Below, piece after piece: positions 53,796 to 64,000 of a stretch of 64,000 bases of DNA (position 1 is the first letter of the stretch; the number at the start of each line of letters is the position of its first letter). Below the pieces are notes generated by a model. That model was not told the origin of the DNA and made no database searches. It was given only the letters and a program-made list of their open reading frames with translations. The DNA is from Leptotrichia hongkongensis. GTDB lineage: Bacteria; Fusobacteriota; Fusobacteriia; Fusobacteriales; Leptotrichiaceae. The stretch covers positions 806,001 to 870,000 of the forward strand of contig NZ_AP019846.1 of NCBI RefSeq assembly GCF_007990635.1. The letters run 5' to 3'. A program made the position numbers and the translations under genes.

Positions 53796-53805
53796 TTGAA
53801 ATAAA

Positions 53806-53848
53806 AAATATTCCTAGATATTTGATATTATTTAGGGGTATTTTTTTA
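53806..53848 (+). terminator. Intrinsic terminator of nspC
   Basis: AAATATTCCTA (53806-53816) pairs with TAGGGGTATTT (53833-53843) with G-U pairs, followed by a T run. Confidence 0.7.
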
Positions 53849-53867
53849 ATTTAGTCAATATTACAAA

Positions 53868-53893
53868 AAAGATAGTCATTTCTAACTATCTTT
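53868..53893 (-). terminator. Intrinsic terminator of the trp operon
   Basis: On the minus strand AAAGATAGT (53893-53885) pairs with ACTATCTTT (53876-53868), followed by a T run (plus-strand A run at 53865-53870). It is the first terminator after trpA. Confidence 0.8.
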
Positions 53894-53895
53894 AC

Positions 53896-54010
53896 TAATA
53901 CTAAACCCCATTTAAATAATGAGCAATTCTACGAAAATAAAAATGAAAAAATATTTATTAATCAAAATATCTAAAAAAATATTCCTATTTTTAAACGGGA
54001 TTTAGTATAA
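53896..54010. repeat. Palindromic repeat, family B, two facing copies
   Basis: ACTAAACCCCATTTAAA (53900-53916) and TTTAAACGGGATTTAGT (53990-54006) form inverted arms about 70 bp apart, close to the trpA stop. Each arm matches the end of the half-element at 47575-47620. Confidence 0.6.
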
Positions 54011-54014
54011 ATAT

Positions 54015-54788
54015 CTATTTAAAAAGTTCATTAATTTTTTGAATCACATAATCCACATCATTTTTCTGGGTAAACTCAACAATACTCGTTCCAACAATCA
54101 CCCCATCCGCATATTTTCTCATCGTATTCACATTATCGTTATTTTTTATTCCAAAACCTAATGAAACTGGCAAGTCTGAAACTTCTCTAATTTCATTAAT
54201 AAAAGACTCCAAACGTGGTAAATCAACTTGTTTTGAACCTGTTACCCCAAGAGATCCGATTGCATAAATAAAGCCGTTACCTTGAGAAATAATTTTTTTC
54301 ATTCTGCTTCCAGAAGTAACGCTTACAAGAGGGATAAGAGCGATATTGTTTTCCTTTAATTTTTCTGACATTTCAAAGGCTTCTTCGTAAGGCAAGTCTG
54401 GAATGATTATTCCTTTAATATTAGTTTCACAGCATTTTTTGATAAATTCATCAATTCCATAAGCAAAGACTAAATTGTAATAAACTAGAAAAATTAGAGG
54501 TTTTGAAATATCATTTTTTACTTCTGTTAATAATTTAAAGACTGTATCGGTAGTAACTCCAGCTTCTGAAGCAAGAAATGAAGAGTGTGAAATCAATTTT
54601 CCATCAGCTAGGGGGTCGGAGTAGGGAATTCCGATTTCAAGCATATCAAGAGCTGTATTATCCAAATTTTGTAAAAATTGTTTTGTAAAATCAACACTTG
54701 GATAGCCTGCGACAATATAACCAATGTTTACTTTTTCTTTTTCTCTAAAAATATCAATAATTTTTTTATCTAAATTTTTTTCACTCAT
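54015..54788 (-). CDS. trpA: Tryptophan synthase alpha chain
   Basis: Splits indole-3-glycerol phosphate to indole and G3P. The 257 residues have the catalytic Glu in [17 protein letters not shown] (Glu about 52), the catalytic Asp in [12 protein letters not shown], and phosphate-binding VSLGFGI and [10 protein letters not shown]. Its start overlaps the trpB end by 8 bp. Last gene of the operon. Confidence 0.97.
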
Positions 54789-56028
54789 TTTCTAAACCTC
54801 CATTTAACTCATAAATTCCGTTTTTTCCGTCAGTTTCCTTATCTTTTAGTACAGAAAAAACAGTATGCATATCTTTATCTCCACGTCCAGATACATTTAC
54901 AATGATAGTTTCTCTCTTGTCTTTAGAAAGAGTAGGACATAATTTTTCAAGATAGGCTAACGCATGGGAACTCTCAATTGCTGGAATAATCCCTTCTTTT
55001 CTTGTAACAAGCATTAACGCCTTCATTGCTTCATCATCAGTAATCGGCGCGTAAGTTGCTCTTTTTGTATCAAATAGATGTGAATGTTCGGGACCTACTC
55101 CTGGATAATCAAGCCCAGCTGAAATTGAGTGAACTGGGCTTATTTGTCCGTATTTGTTTTGAAGAACATAAGTTTTCATTCCGTGGATAATTCCAGGTTT
55201 TCCAAGTGTCAATGTGGCAGCGTGCATATCTGTGTCAATTCCATATCCTCCAGCTTCGACTCCGTAAAGTTTTGTTGAGCTATCTTCTAAAAATGCACTA
55301 AAAATACCAATAGCATTACTTCCTCCACCAACACAGGCAATCACATGATCAGCATGCTTTCCAAGTTCCTCCAGCTGTGCTTTTGCTTCGTAACCGATAA
55401 TTGACTGAAAATCACGCACGATAGTCGGATATGGATGAGGTCCTACAACAGAACCGATTACATAAAACACAGTTTCTATCTCTGCAACCCAAGACTGAAT
55501 AGCCGCAGTTGTAGCTTCCTTCAAAGTTTTAAGCCCATCTTCAATGGAAATAACTCTCGCACCCAAAAGTTCCATTCTAAAAACATTTAATTTTTGCCGT
55601 TCAATGTCAACAGCCCCCATGTAAACATCACACTCCAAACCTAATAGAGCGGCGGCAGTAGCAGTAGCAACTCCATGCTGTCCAGCCCCAGTTTCAGCAA
55701 TAACTTTCTTCTTTCCCATTTTTTTAGCAAGCAAAACCTGTCCAAGTGCATTATTAATTTTATGAGCACCAGTATGATTCAAGTCTTCTCTTTTCAAGTA
55801 AATATCGTGGTTATAATGTTCACTCAAATTTTTGGCATAATAGAGCGGAGTCTCACGCCCAACATAATTTTTTAGCAAATTATCAAATTCTTCAAAAAAT
55901 TCCTTGTCATTCTTTAGCTTTTCATATTCGGTTTCCAGTTCCGATAAAGCAAACATCGCAGTTTCAGGTACAAATTGTCCACCAAATTGCCCAAAATATG
56001 CCTTTTCATTAAAATGTTTATTTTCCAT
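54781..56028 (-). CDS. trpB: Tryptophan synthase beta chain
   Basis: PLP enzyme joining indole and serine to tryptophan. The 415 residues begin [18 protein letters not shown] and carry the PLP Lys in [37 protein letters not shown] and the conserved C-terminal [10 protein letters not shown]. It belongs to the TrpB1 class. Tightly coupled to trpA; 37 bp after trpF. Confidence 0.98.
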
Positions 56029-56065
56029 ATTTTTTTCCTTTCATATCAATCTTTTTAAATTATTA

Positions 56066-56791
56066 TTATTTCTTTTTTACCAAATTTACAACATTTTCAA
56101 CTAATTCCTTACTTTTTCTATTATTAACTTCAACTTTGCTGTTTATATCCAAAATGGCAGGATTGTAGTCAAGCGCTTTTTGAATATTCTCAAGCGACAG
56201 CCCTCCAGCCAGTACAAATGAATATTTCTCCAATTTTTTCAAAATATCCCAGTCAAAGACAATTCCGTTTCCCCCACGATTTACTCCTTTTGCATCAAAT
56301 AGAGGATATTCAATATATGGCTTGTAGTCAGTAATATTCGGAAGTTCATCAGTCACGCCAAAAACTTTCCAAAGCTTCGTTTTAGCAGGGAAATTTTTAC
56401 GTTTTCTAAAACAATTTTTTTCGTACAATTTTTCTAATTTTTGAGTAAGTTCCATGCAATATTCTACTGACTCATCTCCATGTAGCTGAACGACATCAAT
56501 ATCTGTTTCTTCCACAATTTTTACAATATTCTCAATCATCGCATTTACAAATACTCCAACTGTCTTTTTCCCATGCCTATGTGCAATCCGTGTAATTTTA
56601 GCGGCAAGTTCACTATCCACTTGCCTTTGACTTTCTGCAAAAATACATCCAAAATAGTCAATATCCAAAGTTTTCAATTCATTAATTTCAGTAATGCTCC
56701 TAATTCCACAAACTTTTAATTTGGTAGTATTTTCTGCAAGATTATCAGTTGCTACATTATTTTCTTTTTTCTCCAATTTTTTTCCTTCCAT
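56066..56791 (-). CDS. trpF: Phosphoribosylanthranilate isomerase
   Basis: Amadori rearrangement of phosphoribosylanthranilate. The TIM-barrel motifs LKVCGIRS (catalytic Cys), VGVFVN, VVQLHGDES, FVLAGGLSLENI and ILDINSKVE are present. At 241 residues it is longer than the usual 200-210: about 25 residues extend the N-terminus and a Lys/Arg-rich insert (LEKLYEKNCFRKRKNF) lies after the catalytic strands. The start is uncertain: ATG 56791 has no clear ribosome site, while TTG 56776 is preceded by GGAAGGA. Confidence 0.93.
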   Translation of the reverse strand: MEGKKLEKKENNVATDNLAENTTKLKVCGIRSITEINELKTLDIDYFGCIFAESQRQVDSELAAKITRIAHRHGKKTVGVFVNAMIENIVKIVEETDIDVVQLHGDESVEYCMELTQKLEKLYEKNCFRKRKNFPAKTKLWKVFGVTDELPNITDYKPYIEYPLFDAKGVNRGGNGIVFDWDILKKLEKYSFVLAGGLSLENIQKALDYNPAILDINSKVEVNNRKSKELVENVVNLVKKK

Positions 56792-56892
56792 AAATTTAAA
56801 GTTATTTTTCTAAGACCAGTTTAACAACCTAAGTTTTTTATTTTCTCAAGGATCTTTGACTCCTTGTTTCAGAATATTTATTTTATCAAATT

Positions 56893-57618
56893 CTAAAGAA
56901 GTCCTTTCATAAGTGCCTCTCCAATTAGTAGTCCATCCACGTTCAATTTTTCTGCATATTTCACATCTTCTTTTGACAAAAATCCACTTTCACTTACAAT
57001 AGTCAAATTTTTCAAAACATCGTTTGGAATTTCATTTATCAGTTTTTCCGTAGTTTTAATATCAACTTCAAAAGTATTCAAATTTCGGTTATTTATCCCC
57101 AAAATCTCCAAATTTGGAATCTTCAAAGCTCTTCTTATTTCCTCTTCATTATGAGTTTCCACCAGAACATCCATTTCCAAATCCTGTGCCAGCTTATGAA
57201 GGTCCAAAAGTGTCTTATCATCTAACATTCTCACAATCAGCAAAATCGCTGAAGCCCCTAAAAATTTAGCATGAGCCACCTGAAACGGAGTATAAATAAA
57301 ATCCTTTCTCAAAATCGGCATTTCTGGAAATTTTTCCCTTACAACTTTTATAAAATCATTCTCTCCTTTAAAATATTCCTTTTCTGTTAATATCGAAAAA
57401 GCGGAAATTCCTTTATCCACATAACTTTGTGCCTGTTTTAACAAATCAAAATCATCTTTCGCAATTTTTCCATTCGATGGAGAAGCCCTCTTAATTTCCC
57501 CAATAATCTGAATTCCCTTTTGATTAAGTGCCTTTTTTAAAGATGGTTGTTCAAAAGACTTTAATTCATCTTCAAGCTGTATATCTCTTTTAATTTTTAT
57601 TTTTTCTAAAATATCCAT
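56893..57618 (-). CDS. trpC: Indole-3-glycerol phosphate synthase
   Basis: Closes the indole ring of carboxyphenylaminodeoxyribulose phosphate. The 241 residues include IGEIKRASPSNGKI, LRKDFIYTPFQVAHAKFLGASAILLIVRML, VETHNEEE, LGINNRNLNTF and VSESGF, the full TrpC signature. I place the start at ATG 57618 because AAGGAG (57628-57623) is 4 to 5 bp upstream; the longer in-frame start at 57660 adds 14 unrelated residues. Confidence 0.96.
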   Translation of the reverse strand: MDILEKIKIKRDIQLEDELKSFEQPSLKKALNQKGIQIIGEIKRASPSNGKIAKDDFDLLKQAQSYVDKGISAFSILTEKEYFKGENDFIKVVREKFPEMPILRKDFIYTPFQVAHAKFLGASAILLIVRMLDDKTLLDLHKLAQDLEMDVLVETHNEEEIRRALKIPNLEILGINNRNLNTFEVDIKTTEKLINEIPNDVLKNLTIVSESGFLSKEDVKYAEKLNVDGLLIGEALMKGLL

Positions 57619-57634
57619 ATTTCTCCTTTTGTTT

Positions 57635-57964
57635 TTAAATATTTGGTATGAAAATTTCATTTTTTACTAAACTGACATAGATACTAAACATTATTAAATT
57701 TATTAAAAAAATTACTAATTTTAATTTATTTTTAGATTTTTTTCTTTTTTCTTCATCTTTAACTTTATTTATTTTGTTTAATTTTATCGAACTTAAATAC
57801 ATTGCTATTATTTTAAACAAAATATAAATTAAAGGAATATTTCCAATAACAAAAAAATAAAAATTCTAACATAGGATAGAAAAAATTGTAACTAATAAAA
57901 GCAATATTATGTCAGGTACTATAAAATATCTTAAACAATGTTCCCTATATAAAGTTTTTATCAT
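57635..57964 (-). pseudogene. Remnant of a small membrane protein interrupted by an in-frame TAG
   Basis: On the minus strand a single frame runs from ATG 57964 (MIKTLYREHCLRYF...) to the stop at 57637-57635, broken only by TAG at 57868-57866 (codon 33). It would encode about 109 residues with membrane-like segments IIILLLLVTIF-type near the start, VIGNIPLIYILFKIIAMYL in the middle and LKLVIFLINLIMFSIYV near the end. The frame is otherwise open for 330 bp and ends just before trpC. A nonsense mutation, a base-calling error or chance openness are all possible. No family recognised. Confidence 0.45.
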
Positions 57965-58025
57965 ATTCGCATTATTCTTTCTAAAAATTTTAATTTATAA
58001 ATATTTTCAGTTTCTTTTTAGTCTT

Positions 58026-59228
58026 TTAATAAAAATCAATAATATTCAAATGTTTTATTCCGTTTCTTGACATATCAAACCTGTCCATAGAAATTACATA
58101 TTTAGGATAATTATCATTAATTTTTTCAAATGGTAAAAATTCCCTTTTTATAGTGTCTTCAGATGCAAGTAAATATGCCACCTGAATATAAATTTTCTCA
58201 TTATTTGTTTTTGTACAGACAAAATCTATTTCTAAATTATTCAATTTTCCAATTTTTATGTTATAGCCTTTTCGCAATAATTCCATATATACAATATTTT
58301 CAAAAATTTGATTTATATCTCTTTCGTTTGTTTCTAAAATTGCTTCTCTTATTCCATGGTCTGCAATATAATATTTTTCACTCACATTTAGAACTTCTTT
58401 ACCTTGTATTTCGTAACGAGGGACTTTGTGAATCAGAAATGCGTTTTCACAGGCTTTTATGTAATTTAGCACAGTATCTACTGCAACTTTTCTATTTTCG
58501 CTTTTAAAATATTTTGAAATTGAATTTGCAGAAAATGTATTCCCAATGTTCATTACAAGGTAATTGATGATTCGCTCTAATAATTCAGTATTTCTTATAT
58601 TGTTTCTTTGAGTAATATCTTTTAATATTATTGATGAATATATATCTTTTAAATATTGCATGCTTGATTCCACTTCATAATTCAAATTATGTAAAAATGG
58701 CATTCCACCTAGTTTGACAAACTTTTCAAACATTTCTTCTTTTGAAATATTTTGATTTATATTTTGGTATATTGAACAAAACTCTTTAAATGAAAAAGGA
58801 TAAATTTCAACTTCAACATATCTTCCTGCAAGGTAAGTTGCAAGTTCTCCTGATAATAGTTTAGCGTTGGAACCTGTTATATAAATATCAAATTGCTTAT
58901 CTTCTGTTCTTAATGAATTTATACACTTTTCCCATTCTTTTACTTCCTGAATTTCATCCAAAAATAAATAGCATTTTTCTTGAATATTTTCTGCTTTTTC
59001 CAATATATATTCATTCAATGTATCCGCATAGCAAAGATGTCTATTTCTTAAATTTTCAAAATTGATATAAATAAATTGATTTTCATCAACACCGTTTTTT
59101 TTCAATTCTTTCATAATCAATTTTAACATTACAGATTTACCGCTTCTCCTAATTCCAGTCAAAACTTTAATAATATCTTTATCTATAAAGGGTTTAATTT
59201 TTTCAAAATAAATTTTTCTTTCTATCAT
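58026..59228 (-). CDS. AAA-type ATPase with DUF4143 domain
   Basis: A 400-residue ATPase of the AAA_14 plus DUF4143 type: P-loop GIRRSGKS at 25-32, Walker B YLFLDEIQEV, ITGSNAKLLSGELATYLAGR, then a winged-helix-like region and a C-terminal PD-(D/E)XK-like segment (LNNLEIDFVCTKTNNEKIYIQVAY). This family is very abundant in host-associated anaerobes and its role is unknown. It interrupts the trp operon between trpGD and trpC, on the same strand, which suggests insertion of a mobile or dispensable gene. Confidence 0.9.
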   Translation of the reverse strand: MIERKIYFEKIKPFIDKDIIKVLTGIRRSGKSVMLKLIMKELKKNGVDENQFIYINFENLRNRHLCYADTLNEYILEKAENIQEKCYLFLDEIQEVKEWEKCINSLRTEDKQFDIYITGSNAKLLSGELATYLAGRYVEVEIYPFSFKEFCSIYQNINQNISKEEMFEKFVKLGGMPFLHNLNYEVESSMQYLKDIYSSIILKDITQRNNIRNTELLERIINYLVMNIGNTFSANSISKYFKSENRKVAVDTVLNYIKACENAFLIHKVPRYEIQGKEVLNVSEKYYIADHGIREAILETNERDINQIFENIVYMELLRKGYNIKIGKLNNLEIDFVCTKTNNEKIYIQVAYLLASEDTIKREFLPFEKINDNYPKYVISMDRFDMSRNGIKHLNIIDFY

Positions 59229-59352
59229 AAAATCACCTCTATAAATATTTTATCATACTTACAACTAATAAAAAAGATATTTTTGAAATTTTTATCAGTT
59301 ACAATCTATAAAAAATTACAAATTAGTAATTTTATCAATTATATCCAAAAAA

Positions 59353-60999
59353 TTATTTTGTGATTTTCACATAATCTTTATAAAACTCATAAACCTTCCC
59401 ACTCTCAATCGCTTCTAAAACCATATCCTTTGCTTTCGCAGGGTGATCTACTACATCCGCAGTATAAAGTGCGAACATTGCATTTAATACAACAATATCA
59501 AATTTTGCTGATTTTTCTTCACCTTTTAAGATTTTTATCAAGATTTCAGCATTTTCTTCTGGAGTTCTGCCTTCAATTTCAGAATGGAAAGCACGCTTAA
59601 AGCCAAAACTTTCAGGAGATATTGTATATTCAAGAATTTGATCTCCTTTTACTTCGATAATTTTTGTATCATCGCAAATCGTGATTTCATCAAGTCCATC
59701 ATTTCCACGAACAACTAAGGCATGTTCTCTTCCCAGTAATTGTAATGTTTCAGCGTACAATCTGTGTACAGGCTCGTGATAAAGTCCAACCAATTGGTAT
59801 TTTAATTTTGTATTTGGATGAAGCAGTGGACCTAAAATGTTAAATACTGTTCTTATTCCAAGACGGCTTCTAACTTCTCGAACTTCTCCAACTAATTTGT
59901 GGAAAAATGGGGCATGAAAGAAAGCAAGATTTTTTACGTGTAGTTTTTCAATTTGATTTGCAAGTGAGTTTTCAAGCGGTACTCCTAGTTTATCAAGCAC
60001 ATCACTGCTTCCGCTTTTACTTGAGATTGCACGGTTTCCGTGTTTTGCCACATTTACTCCCATTGCTCCTAGAATAAATGCGACAGCTGTTGAAATATTT
60101 ATCGTCTTGAATCCATCGCCACCAGTCCCGCAAACATCAATCATATCAGAATCATCTTCAAAAGTTGTACTGTATTCCAGAATATTTTTCACAAATGCTG
60201 TAAGCGATTCAGGATAAAGGCTTTTTTCTGAAATTAGTACAAGCAAGGCTCCAAGCTGTACAATGTCATAATTTTTGCTATCAATAATTTTGCAGATTTC
60301 ACGAAAATCAGTATCTGTTAATGCAATATTTTCCTGTAATTTTTTTAAATATTTATTCATATCTATAAAGTTTCCTTTCTCGTTAGTATTATTAGAATTT
60401 TCATCATTTTGCAAAGTTTCTGAAACTTCAATACTTAAGAAGTTTCGTATCATATTTTTTCCATATTCAGTAAAAATTGATTCTGGATGAAACTGTATTC
60501 CAAAAATATTTTTACTTTTGTGTTCCACAGCCATTGCAACCCCATCCTCAGATTTTGCCGTAACTTCAAGATTTTCTGGAATATCGTCAACATAAAGTGA
60601 ATGATATCTCATAACTTTAAATTTTTTTGGCAAGTTTTTAAATAATACAGAATTCTCGGATAAAACTGTAATTTCTGAAGTTTTACCATGTAATGGGTTT
60701 TCAAGCCTTTTTATTTCTCCGCCAAAATTCATTCCAATTGCCTGATGCCCAAGACAAATTCCTAAAATTGGAATATTCCCTAGTTCATCAGTATTATTTA
60801 AAATTTCTAGGCAAATTCCGCTGTCCTTTGGATGTTTTGGACCTGGAGAAAAAATTATTTTACTAGGATTCATTTTTTTTATATCATCAATTGTTATTGC
60901 GTCATTTCTAACAGTAATAACTTCATCATCAGTCATTTCCTTCAAATACTGCTCAACATTAAATACAAAAGAATCATAATTGTCAATCATCAAAATCAT
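59353..60999 (-). CDS. trpGD: Fused anthranilate synthase component II / anthranilate phosphoribosyltransferase
   Basis: Two enzymes in one 548-residue chain. Residues about 1-190 are the glutamine amidotransferase: GICLGHQ with nucleophile Cys82, and FGIQFHPESIFTEYG. Residues about 215-548 are TrpD: DVCGTGGDGFKT (290-296), NISTAVAFILGAMGVNVAKHGNRAISSKSGSSDVLDKLG and RSRLGIRTVFNILGPLLHP. A Ser/Asn-rich linker of about 20 residues joins them. The start codon follows the trpE stop directly (TAA ATG), so translation is coupled. Confidence 0.97.
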   Translation of the reverse strand: MILMIDNYDSFVFNVEQYLKEMTDDEVITVRNDAITIDDIKKMNPSKIIFSPGPKHPKDSGICLEILNNTDELGNIPILGICLGHQAIGMNFGGEIKRLENPLHGKTSEITVLSENSVLFKNLPKKFKVMRYHSLYVDDIPENLEVTAKSEDGVAMAVEHKSKNIFGIQFHPESIFTEYGKNMIRNFLSIEVSETLQNDENSNNTNEKGNFIDMNKYLKKLQENIALTDTDFREICKIIDSKNYDIVQLGALLVLISEKSLYPESLTAFVKNILEYSTTFEDDSDMIDVCGTGGDGFKTINISTAVAFILGAMGVNVAKHGNRAISSKSGSSDVLDKLGVPLENSLANQIEKLHVKNLAFFHAPFFHKLVGEVREVRSRLGIRTVFNILGPLLHPNTKLKYQLVGLYHEPVHRLYAETLQLLGREHALVVRGNDGLDEITICDDTKIIEVKGDQILEYTISPESFGFKRAFHSEIEGRTPEENAEILIKILKGEEKSAKFDIVVLNAMFALYTADVVDHPAKAKDMVLEAIESGKVYEFYKDYVKITK

Positions 61000-62334
61000 T
61001 TATTTCACATCCTTTCCACTTTTATTTTCATTGTTTTTATTTTTTTCTTCATTACAGAATTTTTTAAAAATATTTAGCACAGATGCTCTTTTATGGCAAA
61101 TTTCATCATATTCCTTCTCTTTCACAGAATCAAACACAATTCCTGCTCCAGCTTGAATAAATACATTCCGAACCTCATCAACTTTATTCAAGTCATAATT
61201 TTTATTTTCAAAAAATGCAGTACGAATAATAATCGCAAGTTGAACATCACCATTAAATCTCAAAAATCCAATTCCGCCAGCATAAACATTTCTTTTAAAT
61301 GTCTCAAGTTCTGAAATGATTTGCATAGCACGAATTTTTGGCGATCCAGAAAGCGTTCCCGCTGGAAGAGCCTGAGCGATAACTTCAAATATCGACACAT
61401 CTTTTCTCTTTTTCCCATAAACATCAGTTACAATGTGCATTACATGTTCATAATTCTTAATATGCATAAGATTTTTTACAACAACTGAGCCACTTTCTGC
61501 AAATTTCCCAATATCATTTCTAGCCAAGTCAACAAGCATCCTATGTTCAGCACATTCTTTTTCATCATTTAATAAGTCGTTTGCTAAAAATGCGTCTTCG
61601 TTGGCATCTTTTCCTCTGGGACGAGTTCCAGCGATAGGAGCGATATAAATATTATCCGATGAAATATCAACCAGTATTTCAGGACTAGAACCAACAATAT
61701 CTCCATATTTCGTAGGAAAATGGTACATATATGGACTCGGATTTGCCTTTGACAATTTTTCATAAAAATCAAGAGAATCCATATTTGACGTAAGTTTTAA
61801 CTGCTCGCTTAGTACAACTTGAAAAATATCTCCAGACTTAATATATTCCTTTGCTTTTTCAATAATTCTATAATAATGTAATTGTTCCTCTTCAAAATCT
61901 GTTTTTATATCATAAAATAAATCAGAATCATTAAATTTTTCAGAAATTTCATCATTTAAAAAACTAAAATATTTTTCTTCATCTCCATAAAATGAAAATT
62001 CTTTACTAGTCTTTGAATAGTGTAAATATGCCTTTGCATTGGCAAAAATAAACTGTGGAAATTTAAACTGCTCTTTTTCAATTTTTCCAATTTTTTCAAA
62101 AAAATGTATCGACTCATAAGCAAATGTTCCAAAAAGTCCTACAAAAGGGGAAAGTCTTTTCTGTTTTACAAAAGAATTGTATATTTTTTTTAACGAGTCA
62201 TAACTGTATTCATTAGAATCAAAATATTCACAGTCAATCCCAATAATAACTTGCCTTTCATCTTCAGCAAAATAGGAATTGCTAAATTTTTTTCTGATAA
62301 TAGAGTAGTAATAAGTAGGTTTGTTTGTTAACAT
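61000..62334 (-). CDS. trpE: Anthranilate synthase component I
   Basis: Converts chorismate and ammonia to anthranilate with the TrpG domain. About 444 residues; the chorismate-binding core is clear: SGDIFQVVLSEQ, NPSPYMYHF, GSSPEILV, PIAGTRPRGKD, ERRM-type DLARNDIG, LPAGTLSGSPKIRAMQII and GGIGFLRFNGDVQLAIIIRTA. The N-terminal Trp-feedback motif LLES of many TrpE proteins is not evident (NSYFAEDE there). GTG 62346 opens the frame, but ATG 62334 is better placed after AAGTGAG. It starts the structural operon and probably needs the leader at 63.25-63.5 kb or a closer, unclear promoter. Confidence 0.93.
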   Translation of the reverse strand: MLTNKPTYYYSIIRKKFSNSYFAEDERQVIIGIDCEYFDSNEYSYDSLKKIYNSFVKQKRLSPFVGLFGTFAYESIHFFEKIGKIEKEQFKFPQFIFANAKAYLHYSKTSKEFSFYGDEEKYFSFLNDEISEKFNDSDLFYDIKTDFEEEQLHYYRIIEKAKEYIKSGDIFQVVLSEQLKLTSNMDSLDFYEKLSKANPSPYMYHFPTKYGDIVGSSPEILVDISSDNIYIAPIAGTRPRGKDANEDAFLANDLLNDEKECAEHRMLVDLARNDIGKFAESGSVVVKNLMHIKNYEHVMHIVTDVYGKKRKDVSIFEVIAQALPAGTLSGSPKIRAMQIISELETFKRNVYAGGIGFLRFNGDVQLAIIIRTAFFENKNYDLNKVDEVRNVFIQAGAGIVFDSVKEKEYDEICHKRASVLNIFKKFCNEEKNKNNENKSGKDVK

Positions 62335-62529
62335 AAAATATCTCACTTTCTATATTATTGTATTTTTCTTTATTTATACTATTTTACAATCTATCCAACT
62401 ATTAAATTATTCTTTAATTAAATTTTATCATCAAGTATTTATATAAGAATTCTTATTTAAAATTTGAAAAACTGCTTACTGTTAATAAATGTTTTTTCAT
62501 AATTTCATGTTTTTTCTTTTTATATAAGC

Positions 62530-62555
62530 AAGGGAAATCAATCGCCATTTCCCTT
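62530..62555. terminator. Hairpin, possible terminator on the plus strand
   Basis: AAGGGAAAT (62530-62538) pairs with ATTTCCCTT (62547-62555); TTTATTT follows on the plus strand. No gene on the plus strand leads into it, so its role is unclear. Confidence 0.4.
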
Positions 62556-63020
62556 TATTTCGCAATAAAAGTTATTTTAACATCTTTAAATAATGGTATA
62601 TTAAAGAGAATGGCGAAAGTGCTATGCACTAACCCTGGCTCGTCTAAGCATTTTTTTGAAATATTCCCAAATTTTATTTGGGAAAGTAGTCTAAACATTT
62701 ATATTTGGATAAACTTGAATTACTACGAAAACGAAACTCACTAACACTCACTTTTGCAAATAAATAATTAGAACAACTCTATAAAATATATCTGCTATAA
62801 AGGTTCTAGCGAAAGAAACACATAAATGTGTTTAGTCGTTTTCATTTCAAAAAAAATCACGACATTCTATATTAAATTATAAAGATTATTATATTTAAGT
62901 TTTAGGTTTTTACATTTTGAAAATACTAAATAAGCAAAATTTCGTTAAAGGAAAAATAACTGTTTGAGCATAGTTTTACGAAGCGAGTTTTATTTTTTCT
63001 TTATAAGAAAGTTTTGCGTA

Positions 63021-63059
63021 AAGCGGGGTTGTAAGGGCATGGTGTTTGATGCCCTTACG
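63021..63059 (+). repeat. 39-bp hairpin repeat (family C), copy 2
   Basis: Identical to 42162-42200 except T for C in the loop. It forms the same 10-bp stem GTAAGGGCAT / ATGCCCTTAC. Confidence 0.85.
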
Positions 63060-63250
63060 TTACAAAAAACTTGAATAAAAAAATAAAAGAACTATTATTA
63101 ACCATACTATTTATAAATAAAATTATAAAAGTCTTTAAGAGGGATACTTAAAAATTAGATTTAATTTTTTTAATTAAGATTATAAAATTAATTGTTATAG
63201 AATTTTATTTCTATTTTCTAAATGAGGTTTAGTGTTAGTTGAAATTTATA

Positions 63251-63289
63251 AAAAAAATTCTCTTAAATCGTTTTACCGACTAAGAGAAT
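63251..63289 (-). terminator. Attenuator terminator of the trp leader
   Basis: On the minus strand ATTCTCTTA (63289-63281) pairs with TAAGAGAAT (63265-63257), followed directly by seven or more U (63256-63251). It lies 100 bp after the leader-peptide stop. A separate hairpin (63330-63301) precedes it. Confidence 0.85.
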
Positions 63290-63300
63290 TGTATAAAATA

Positions 63301-63330
63301 AAAGCATTGATTTTGTTTCACCAATGCTTT
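63301..63330 (-). other. Second hairpin of the trp leader
   Basis: On the minus strand AAAGCATTG (63330-63322) pairs with CAATGCTTT (63309-63301), with TTATTTTAT after it. It could be a pause or anti-terminator element or an additional terminator; a structure excluding the next hairpin is not obvious by eye. Confidence 0.65.
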
Positions 63331-63389
63331 TCTCACAATATTTAATAATAGTAATTACAATAAATTTCAACATAGCTGGCAAAAAAATA

Positions 63390-63437
63390 TTAAATTGTAT
63401 TTAATTTTTTCCACCAAATCCAAGTTTGTTTAATCAT
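63390..63437 (-). CDS. trpL: Trp-rich leader peptide of the trp operon
   Basis: Fifteen codons, MIKQTWIWWKKLNTI, with Trp at positions 6, 8 and 9 (TGG ATT TGG TGG), starting at ATG 63437 and stopping at TAA 63392-63390. The ribosome site AAGGAG (63451-63446) is ideally spaced (8 nt). The gene sits about 38 nt after a predicted transcription start and is followed by two hairpins, the second with a U run. Such a peptide is the sensor of transcription attenuation: scarce charged tRNA-Trp stalls the ribosome on the Trp codons. It is unusually far (about 1.1 kb) from trpE. Confidence 0.8.
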   Translation of the reverse strand: MIKQTWIWWKKLNTI

Positions 63438-63482
63438 TGTAATCACTCCTTAAAATTTTATTTATTATTTTACTCTACAAAT

Positions 63483-63511
63483 AATATACCACAAAAAATG
63501 TATTTTGTAAA
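63483..63511 (-). promoter_or_regulatory. Promoter of the trp leader
   Basis: On the minus strand TTTACA (63511-63506), 17-bp spacer, TATATT (63488-63483), about 46 bp before the leader ATG. Confidence 0.75.
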
Positions 63512-63602
63512 ATATATTTTATTAATTTAACCATAACTTTTATTAATGATTAAAATGATTTTTTCAGTATTTGAACTTCTAATAAAACACAATTAAATGG
63601 AA

Positions 63603-63908
63603 CTATTTAAGCAAATTTAAGGCTTGATCCAGTACTTTTACCCCGTTCATCATTCCATAGTCAACCATATTAATCACATCTATATTAATATTATTTTCTT
63701 CAGCAATTTTTTTTGCTTCAGGTAAAGCATATTTAACCTGTGGTCCCAATAGGACAACATCTGCTTTTTTAAATTCTTCTTTTGCTTTATCAAGAGGCTC
63801 TGCCCAGATTTTAGTTTCAATCCCTCTCTTTTCAGCCTCAGCTTTCATTTTGTTTACTAATAGACTAGTAGACATTCCTGCTGCACAGCATAATAAGATT
63901 TTTTTCAT
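63603..63908 (-). CDS. PTS lactose/cellobiose-type EIIB component
   Basis: A 101-residue phosphocarrier of the lactose/chitobiose PTS family: MKKILLCCAAGMSTSLLVNKM with the phospho-Cys (Cys8) in the P-loop-like CAAGMSTS, and the typical KKADVVLLGPQVKYALPEAKKIAEE. It passes phosphate from EIIA to the sugar during EIIC-mediated uptake. Its EIIA and EIIC partners are not in the window and may lie beyond it. Ribosome site AAGGGTGA. ptsI of the same system is at 11.0 kb. Confidence 0.94.
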   Translation of the reverse strand: MKKILLCCAAGMSTSLLVNKMKAEAEKRGIETKIWAEPLDKAKEEFKKADVVLLGPQVKYALPEAKKIAEENNINIDVINMVDYGMMNGVKVLDQALNLLK

Positions 63909-64000
63909 TTTTAATCACCCTTTCTTCTCTTGCCAAAAAATTTACTTTTAAATATATTTTCATTGTTTTGTTCTGAATAAGGTTAACTTTTACATTCATA

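Follow-up and report, generated by a model that had tools for sequence, protein, structure and literature searches.

A PDC-S01-type ATPase gene as a probable exchangeable passenger cassette in the trp operon of Leptotrichia

Within the tryptophan operon of Leptotrichia hongkongensis, a gene for a DUF4143 ATPase lies on the operon's own strand between trpGD and trpC. Does it serve tryptophan synthesis, or does it merely lodge there? We consider it fairly probable that it lodges there as a passenger: a self-contained cassette, putatively defensive and controlled by an array of upstream sites, in a part of the operon that serves as a slot for cargo exchanged between species. We found no sign of a role in tryptophan synthesis.

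The ATPase gene and its position between trpGD and trpC

In the window, that is, the whole 64,000-nt stretch analysed, the minus-strand open reading frame at 58026-59228 encodes 400 amino acids without internal stops and is intact. Its product carries AAA_14 (residues 20-151, E 2.7e-39, 134.6 bits against a cut-off of 27) followed by DUF4143 (residues 203-351, E 5.5e-21, 75.4 bits against 28.1), the domain order of the AAA_14-DUF4143 family, and is the only DUF4143 match in the 2.28-Mb genome (G000). Its Pfam-assigned neighbours, all on the minus strand, follow the order trpE-GD-C-F-B-A: trpE (61000-62346), trpGD (59353-60999; GATase and Glycos_transf_3), trpC (56893-57618; IGPS) and trpF-trpB-trpA (54015-56791). 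The trpC frame opens at 57660, and its conserved start, MDILEKIKI, is at 57618, so that the gap from the end of trpGD at 59353 measures 1.73 kb. The earlier note had placed a DUF4143 ATPase gene here and the trp genes 1.7 kb apart, in agreement with both annotation and measurement. Besides the ATPase, however, the gap holds features absent from that note: a resident membrane-protein gene (57638-57964, minus strand), here a frameshifted remnant with a premature TAG after codon 32 and open in 12 other genomes, and an array of control sites; in some other species the cargo itself is different.

The note also expected the operon to be transcribed through the insertion or restarted behind it. No intrinsic terminator was found in the gap, a weak test given 0.2 expected from shuffles, and read-through into trpC is therefore possible; a promoter-like region precedes the ATPase, but none clearly precedes trpC. 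An Rfam search of 53800-64000 at gathering thresholds returned no match. As to traces of insertion, the slot contains no transposase- or integrase-sized ORF and no boundary repeat clearly left by an insertion event, and the target-site duplication for which the note had suggested looking did not turn up in convincing form. The closest candidate, a 22-nt near-repeat (18/22; 86% in another alignment) linking the ATPase leader with the membrane-gene start, was reached by 2 of 3000 leader shuffles but chosen post hoc; since it also shares bases with the cassette's promoter-like region, of which other addresses have counterparts, we do not call it a duplication. Another candidate, TTTTTGGA, common to both cassette edges and the empty site, was read by eye as a T-run plus ribosome-binding site.

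The PADLOC profile PDLC04787 matches the protein over nearly its entire length (E 2.2e-163; residues 1-399 of 400, profile positions 10-405 of 412), which assigns it to PDC-S01. The Walker A (GIRRSGKS) and Walker B (FLDEIQ) motifs are those of a STAND-type P-loop NTPase, with G30, K31, S32, D91, E92 and Q94 invariant in 22 sequences. An AF2 model built on this 22-sequence alignment (pLDDT 88.8, pTM 0.88) has an AAA core and a helical region, then a winged helix at residues 214-288 and, last, a C-terminal domain. The best VIA-align match is SSO1545 (2fna; Z 17.9 over 266 residues, rmsd 3.2), followed by PABY2304 (17.7), plant NLRs (RPP1, 16.2) and CED-4 (15.5), with EfAvs5 at 12.8; by these matches the model has the STAND arrangement of a NOD core with a winged helix behind it. 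The first Foldseek match was Cdc6/Orc1 on DNA (2qby), and the wing region of a paralogue scored above the Pfam cut-off for FUR, a winged-helix family. No PDB chain was matched by sequence at E 0.01. The predicted fold is thus a STAND/SSO1545-type NTPase with a winged helix.

In the DUF4143 domain, most relatives keep the ExD motif, and Q-x-(A/S/T/C) occupies the ExK strand, which was placed by eye on Q349, a residue invariant in the 22 sequences. No aligned relative has a lysine two residues after Q349, which leaves the active PD-(D/E)XK catalytic set incomplete. Because the ExK lysine is absent, we expect an ATPase without canonical nuclease activity. The fold search barely covered residues beyond 307, and the assignment of 305-395 to the PD-(D/E)XK class is taken from PMC12988326.

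Variable cargo in the trpGD-trpC gap and its exchange between species

We surveyed 13 Leptotrichia genomes, 12 of which (all but G010) have trpC, comparing 20-kb stretches of the 11 others with the window. The ATPase occupies the trpGD-trpC gap in six of the twelve (G000, G002, G003, G004, G006 and G008), an alternative module in four (G001, G005, G007 and G012), and neither in two (G009 and G011). The alternative module has four genes, for DUF5301, DUF3990, 86-aa and DUF3791 proteins, with domains assigned on the G001 copy; in G001, PADLOC labels it PDC-M13 through its A, B and C models and leaves the DUF5301 gene unmatched. As a side observation, the DUF5301 gene, the first of the M13-type cargo, begins inside the 3' end of trpGD (L078:11626-12117, L077:7770-8186), so that trpGD sequence, read in another frame, codes for its N terminus. 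The gap is thus variable, with alternative cargo in different species. The note's proposal of an insertion unrelated to tryptophan is supported by this distribution, and the ATPase is far from being conserved at this position in all relatives, the finding that would have told against the proposal.

A gene for a small membrane protein (110-126 aa; weak TerC, AgrB and 4TM matches) stands directly before trpC in all twelve genomes and is frameshifted only in the window genome. Among 98 Fusobacteriota genomes it was matched in those twelve, in G078 and, weakly and with four stops, in G056. In G078, which belongs to another genus, it is open and is the sole gene of the gap. Apart from G078, the family genomes of other genera that have trpC (G079, G080, G081, G087, G088 and G090) all have the aligned ends of trpGD and trpC only 18-65 bp apart, which answers the note's question about adjacency in relatives. 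The ATPase is therefore not a conserved operon member, being found in 6/12 trp operons within the genus versus 0/7 in the rest of the family. Judging from gap contents across genus and family, trpGD and trpC were likely close together in the ancestor; the membrane gene would have arrived first and the cargo afterwards.

Between species, the cargo has diverged far less than the trp genes around it. Between G001 and G007, dS is 0.08-0.12 for the M13-side genes versus 0.94-1.66 for the trp genes, and each of the four M13-side genes falls below each of six trp genes in all six carrier pairs. Pooled dS of the ATPase is 0.102 (bootstrap 0.071-0.132) versus 0.193-0.298 for the trp genes, and is the lower value in 15/15 pairs (14/15 for trpC). 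The membrane gene behaves likewise: the G012 and G007 copies are identical over their aligned part while trpB has a dS of 1.42, and the G001 and G078 copies share 97.3% of their DNA (dS 0.11, versus 0.89 for trpC). Identity profiles were drawn for 11 pairs; in the G012-G007 profile, identity starts at 65-76% over the 750 bp that open trpGD, rises to 90-95% at its 3' end and to 95-100% across the cargo and membrane gene, and declines to 75% within trpC. Cargo therefore passes from species to species, and parts of the trp genes on either side travel with it. Since it is less diverged than the trp genes and the identity tracts reach into the flanks, we infer that cassettes spread by homologous recombination with trpGD and trpC sequences as arms. 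The ATPase is under strong purifying selection in its six carriers (dN/dS 0.07); the membrane gene has values of 0.37 and, over 12 genomes with G000 left out, 0.43.

PDC-S01-like genes have further fixed addresses within the genus. Full-length copies lie between hisD and hisC in 7 of the 12 genomes with hisD, with a remnant in G008; the window genome has no hisD match. At the hisB-hisH address, on the opposite strand, the gene is intact in G003 and in pieces in G002, G004, G008 and G010. In 6/13 genomes the cobalamin operon carries a copy, flanked by cbiD and the methylase gene that follows, which we read as cbiL. Upstream of deoC, a copy is found in five (G005, G007, G009, G011 and G012), in four of them with a YefM/YoeB pair on the far side; at this address the G011 ATPase is broken, G007 has deoC in pieces, and in G012 a distance of 1.6 kb separates deoC from the copy. 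The G010 copy adjoins a SIS-domain gene (murQ-like by our own reading), and a non-operon address beside a SemiSWEET-like gene, again our own reading, is occupied in 5/5 genomes checked. In the tree, the trp, deoC, his and cob copies form four clades (support 1.0, 1.0, 0.999 and 1.0), suggesting that copies spread at one address rather than hop between addresses.

Several observations concern the surroundings of these copies. In the cobalamin slot of G010, a GmrSD/HEC-06-like gene stands beside the PDC-S01 copy (L185:2443-4734); antiviral activity has been reported for HEC-06 (PMC12988326). The CbiC and CbiD proteins are 99.7-100% identical among G001, G002 and G003 and 72-76% identical to those of G000 and G004 (L184, L186 and L187 versus L214 and L182), which shows allele replacement in the cobalamin operon too. 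The Leptotrichia his operon holds several variable extra genes between his genes (L090 = G003:C5:908000-926000, L091, L193-L200), among them genes for 221-230-aa proteins without a Pfam match, PDC-S01 copies and others. A second AAA_14/DUF4143 subfamily is located beside hsdS-like genes (own reading) in G008 and G010 (L189, L190). Finally, in a Bacilli MAG (L134:4928-7191), a 42% identical relative with the perfect dyad AGTTTTACGGTTACAACCGTAAAACT upstream directly follows rplU/rpmA-like genes and precedes an obgE-like gene (own reading).

Near-palindromic sites at 40-bp spacing upstream of the ATPase genes

Between the trpGD stop and the ATPase start, the leader contains near-palindromic, TTTTATCAGTTATAACTGATAAAA-like sites 39-40 bp apart, all given here on the minus strand. 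Directly after the trpGD stop, operator-like copy 1 (59330-59345) matches GTTATAACTGATAAAA at 14 of 16 positions. Copy 2 (59290-59313) matches a 24-bp palindrome at 20 of 24 positions, a score reached by 0/300 shuffles, and contains the only exact RTTRTAACTGATAAAA match of this genome. The third copy (59248-59265) is weak, which counts against the array reading. It is overlapped by a promoter-like sequence, TTTTTT-17-TAAAAT (59247-59275), with a poor -35 element; a consensus promoter scan returned 10 sites versus 16.9 in shuffles, this one not among them. Counterparts read by eye as TTGATT/TTTTTT-17-TATAAT occupy the same position at the deoC and murQ copies. The ribosome-binding site of the ATPase as read from the sequence, GAGGTGA (59233-59239), is kept in all six carriers. 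At the deoC copies the sites stand at -104/-105, -65 and -25, followed by GAGGTGA.

Arrays of this kind are found upstream of each of the subfamily's 12 copies in the genus, and also of some relatives in Fusobacteriota and Spirochaetia. Across the 13 genomes there are 13 exact RTTRTAACTGATAAAA sites, 11 of which lie at most 120 bp upstream of an ATPase, one in each genome with a trp or deoC copy (11/11). The remaining two, in G005 and G011, are found about 0.1 kb before YefM/YoeB at the deoC address, where both toxin-antitoxin pairs (L085:7118-7773 and L086:9272-9925) adjoin the PDC-S01 gene. No exact site occurs in G001, which lacks a subfamily ATPase, or in G010. With one mismatch allowed, the 13 genomes yield 103 sites, most of them elsewhere, against 39 for a reversed control pattern, and only the exact form is therefore specific.

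Outside the genus, the genus consensus was applied to 23 held-out ATPase upstream regions, which are the 27 loci minus L113 (a genus member) and L133, L137 and L138 (partial or broken); many of them are close relatives of one another, and the counts are not independent. At least 14/16 positions matched in 5/23, versus 0/163 upstream regions of other ORFs in the same loci (those overlapping the ATPase leader were dropped); on the opposite strand the counts were 7 versus 0, as expected of a palindrome, and at a threshold of 12/16 they were 12/23 versus 8/163. Shuffles were added because the controls are less AT-rich (62% versus 71%). The score for the 24-bp palindrome, written after L129 and the genus copies had been seen, was reached by at most 4 of 300 shuffles in 15 of the 23 regions and by at least 11 in the other eight. 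L129 (Spirochaetia) has the perfect 24-bp palindrome, and most clostridial relatives have a single site near -100 and no array.

A search for the palindrome with at most one mismatch in 98 Fusobacteriota genomes matched six. In G012, G032 and G049 it stands before an ATPase of 70-72% identity; two of these cases were new, and both have further copies beside it at exactly 40 bp. Genes for HKD-SNF2 helicases of 1061 and 1073 aa follow three copies spaced at 40 bp in G043 and G045; the two helicases, which PADLOC labels C3a139, share 27% identity. No PDC-S01 match exists in G043, and G045 has a single one, of 41%, elsewhere. The helicase loci (L229:3422-6810, L230:362-3786) share the same neighbourhood in both genomes. 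G048 has two lone palindromes without an ATPase or helicase behind them (L227:2958, L231:3428), one between efp-like and aminotransferase genes and one intergenic, in a genome without a PDC-S01 match.

Among 88 sequences totalling 1,182,032 bases, a set without the short duplicate loci and the viral loci, site pairs with at most six mismatches occur 24 times at 40 bp and 8 times at 39 bp, versus at most three times at any other spacing from 22 to 75, in a set enriched by six loci (L227-L232) that were picked by palindrome, though not by spacing. The 39-40-bp pairs come from 18 ATPase sequences (17 places, since L113 repeats L076) and the two helicase loci. With 200 shuffled palindromes, the mean was 1.54 and the maximum 22 pairs, and none reached 32. 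Six viral contigs contain the palindrome: in L234 it lies 77 bp before a 58% identical ATPase, and the other five have no ATPase match. Three of the six (L233, L235 and L238) show 39-40-bp pairs at the same mismatch limit without an ATPase, in repetitive AT stretches and among pairs at several other spacings.

Taken as a plain dyad, the operator was rejected, since in 10 of 14 upstream regions at least 20 of 60 shuffles reached the score; dyads that beat their own shuffles were those of L129 and L134 (0/60), L117 (1/60) and cob (2/60). A de novo best-repeat search gave scores reached by 41 of 100 shuffles for trp, 3 for deoC, 1 for murQ, 27 for his, 98 for cob, 8 for the SemiSWEET side and 10 for hisB-hisH. 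Single-site dyads being mostly not above shuffles, the evidence consists of the shared motif and its spacing. The top self-similarity lag was 39-42 at all seven genus addresses, although with fresh permutations that of murQ became 32. In the 23 outside upstream regions, the mean z peaks weakly at 39-40 (0.88 and 0.85; 0.83 at 49), and this signal is due largely to L136 (8.3) and L129 (6.4). The his, cob, SemiSWEET-side and hisB-hisH subfamilies have other motifs, and their self-similarity still peaks at 40-42 bp. None of 189 AT-rich control upstream regions reaches the signal of these four or of trp, whereas the deoC and murQ lag-40 signals are not exceptional alone, being reached by 9 and 14 of the 189. 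Alignments of seven his and six cob upstream regions contain conserved blocks, and in the cob regions a GGATTACATTCC/GGAATATATTCC-type palindrome occurs three times at about 40 bp. A constant spacing with a subfamily-specific motif is what self-recognition by each ATPase would give.

A putative defence cassette and its alternatives

The following scenario would account for these features. The ATPase may have entered the trp slot once and spread afterwards through homologous recombination, with trpGD and trpC as anchors. It would be expressed from its own promoter, which may also feed trpCFBA by read-through. The STAND-type NTPase would bind its own array through the winged helix and keep its own level low until some cue, such as a phage, a plasmid or stress, led to release or oligomerisation, with defence against phages or mobile elements as the outcome. 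The cassette is probably self-contained and autoregulated. The defensive outcome is suggested by the PADLOC label, the fold class and the company of such genes (PDC-M13, HEC-06-like and HKD-SNF2 genes in equivalent positions), which make the ATPase a candidate only; PDC-S01 and PDC-M13 are both unproven defence candidates.

The main fact that pure autoregulation leaves unexplained is the presence of arrays before the helicase genes of G043 and G045, which lack a close ATPase; evidently an array can persist without the ATPase. Cargo replacement that left relic arrays behind, or else a shared regulator, could explain this. According to the latter explanation, a host regulator rather than the ATPase binds the array and holds several defence genes, and the cassettes behind it, under common control, which would also suit the exact single sites before YefM/YoeB in G005 and G011. 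We regard this as possible but rather unlikely: the trp, his and cob copies of one genome (for example, G002) differ in motif at the same spacing, which one regulator does not explain, G001 has neither the subfamily nor an exact site, and arrays left behind after cargo replacement account for the helicase cases equally well. It is less likely still that the cassette is a selfish element kept by mobility or addiction, with the array as a landing or homing site and not an operator. Spread between species, the persistence of arrays beside other cargo and relatives on 249 plasmid and 18 phage records (all below 60% identity) would fit such an element, but the slot lacks both a transposase- or integrase-sized ORF and a clear target duplication, the address-specific clades point to homologous recombination and not hopping, and the promoter-like sites come after the arrays.

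A functional position in the operon, with the ATPase tuning tryptophan synthesis or trpC expression, would agree with the shared strand, the failure to find a terminator in the gap and a mid-operon promoter-like region that could alter trpCFBA expression. Yet the gene is missing from half of the twelve trp operons of the genus and from 6/6 in the rest of the family (7/7 with G078), its close relatives reside near deoC or murQ, and paralogues sit in his and cobalamin operons, all of which makes this explanation very improbable. An old, useless insertion decaying like the membrane gene of the window is hardly credible: broken copies do exist (the deoC copy of G011, the pieces at hisB-hisH), but the dN/dS of the six carriers and the intact Walker motifs of the aligned copies speak against decay.

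We thus retain the passenger cassette as the preferred reading and compare it with known systems. PDC-S01 has been reported to rank fourth by frequency among the defence candidates of all prokaryotes and is described as a fusion of an ATPase with a PD-(D/E)XK member, found by guilt-by-embedding and presented as unvalidated, anti-phage activity included (PMC12988326); PDC-S01 and PDC-M13 were also abundant in a rumen study (PMC13356809). The Leptotrichia protein matches the PDC-S01 profile over its full length and would share this fusion of domains. Unlike PDC-S01 as described, its gene sits in a slot of a biosynthetic operon behind an array of palindromes spaced at about 40 bp; no such array is described in PMC12988326, from which the terms palindrom, promoter and operator are absent. 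Among the literature matches listed, no description of slot or array was found, which is weak evidence of absence. With SSO1545, PABY2304, NLRs, CED-4 and EfAvs5 the protein shares an NB-ARC-like core and winged helix, but its 400 residues are too few to accommodate a large repeat sensor or a TIR/SIR2 effector, and it ends in a DUF4143 domain without the ExK lysine. The mycobacterial IniR is likewise an SSO1545-like ATPase, which binds a promoter and controls transcription; unlike the protein considered here, IniR has 818 aa, a MalT-like sensor and a separate DNA-binding domain, and acts on another operon (PMC5760070).

The exchange of defence genes at fixed chromosomal places is reported for the core defence hotspots of Pseudomonas aeruginosa (PMC10250203) and the defence-island repertoire of E. 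coli (PMC10121019), whereas in Leptotrichia a single gene or small module is exchanged between two genes of the same biosynthetic operon. Other bacteria, too, have unrelated genes lodged among their trp genes (PMC2395257), but the passages of that paper do not describe exchangeable cargo in one slot.

If the case can be generalised, and here we see the chances as evenly balanced, PDC-S01 proteins, one of the commonest uncharacterised families of prokaryotes, would be self-controlling STAND ATPases, each with an array spaced at about 40 bp and a motif that varies by subfamily, and the trp, his and cobalamin operons of Leptotrichia would be exchange slots whose core genes serve as homology arms for defence cargo between species and genera. 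The array gives work on PDC-S01 something concrete to start from: a DNA ligand to go with a predicted binding domain, and designs for reporters. The slot illustrates how small cargo may be exchanged without visible mobile-element machinery, with conserved biosynthetic genes as recombination arms, and suggests that defence candidates should be sought inside housekeeping operons as well as in islands.
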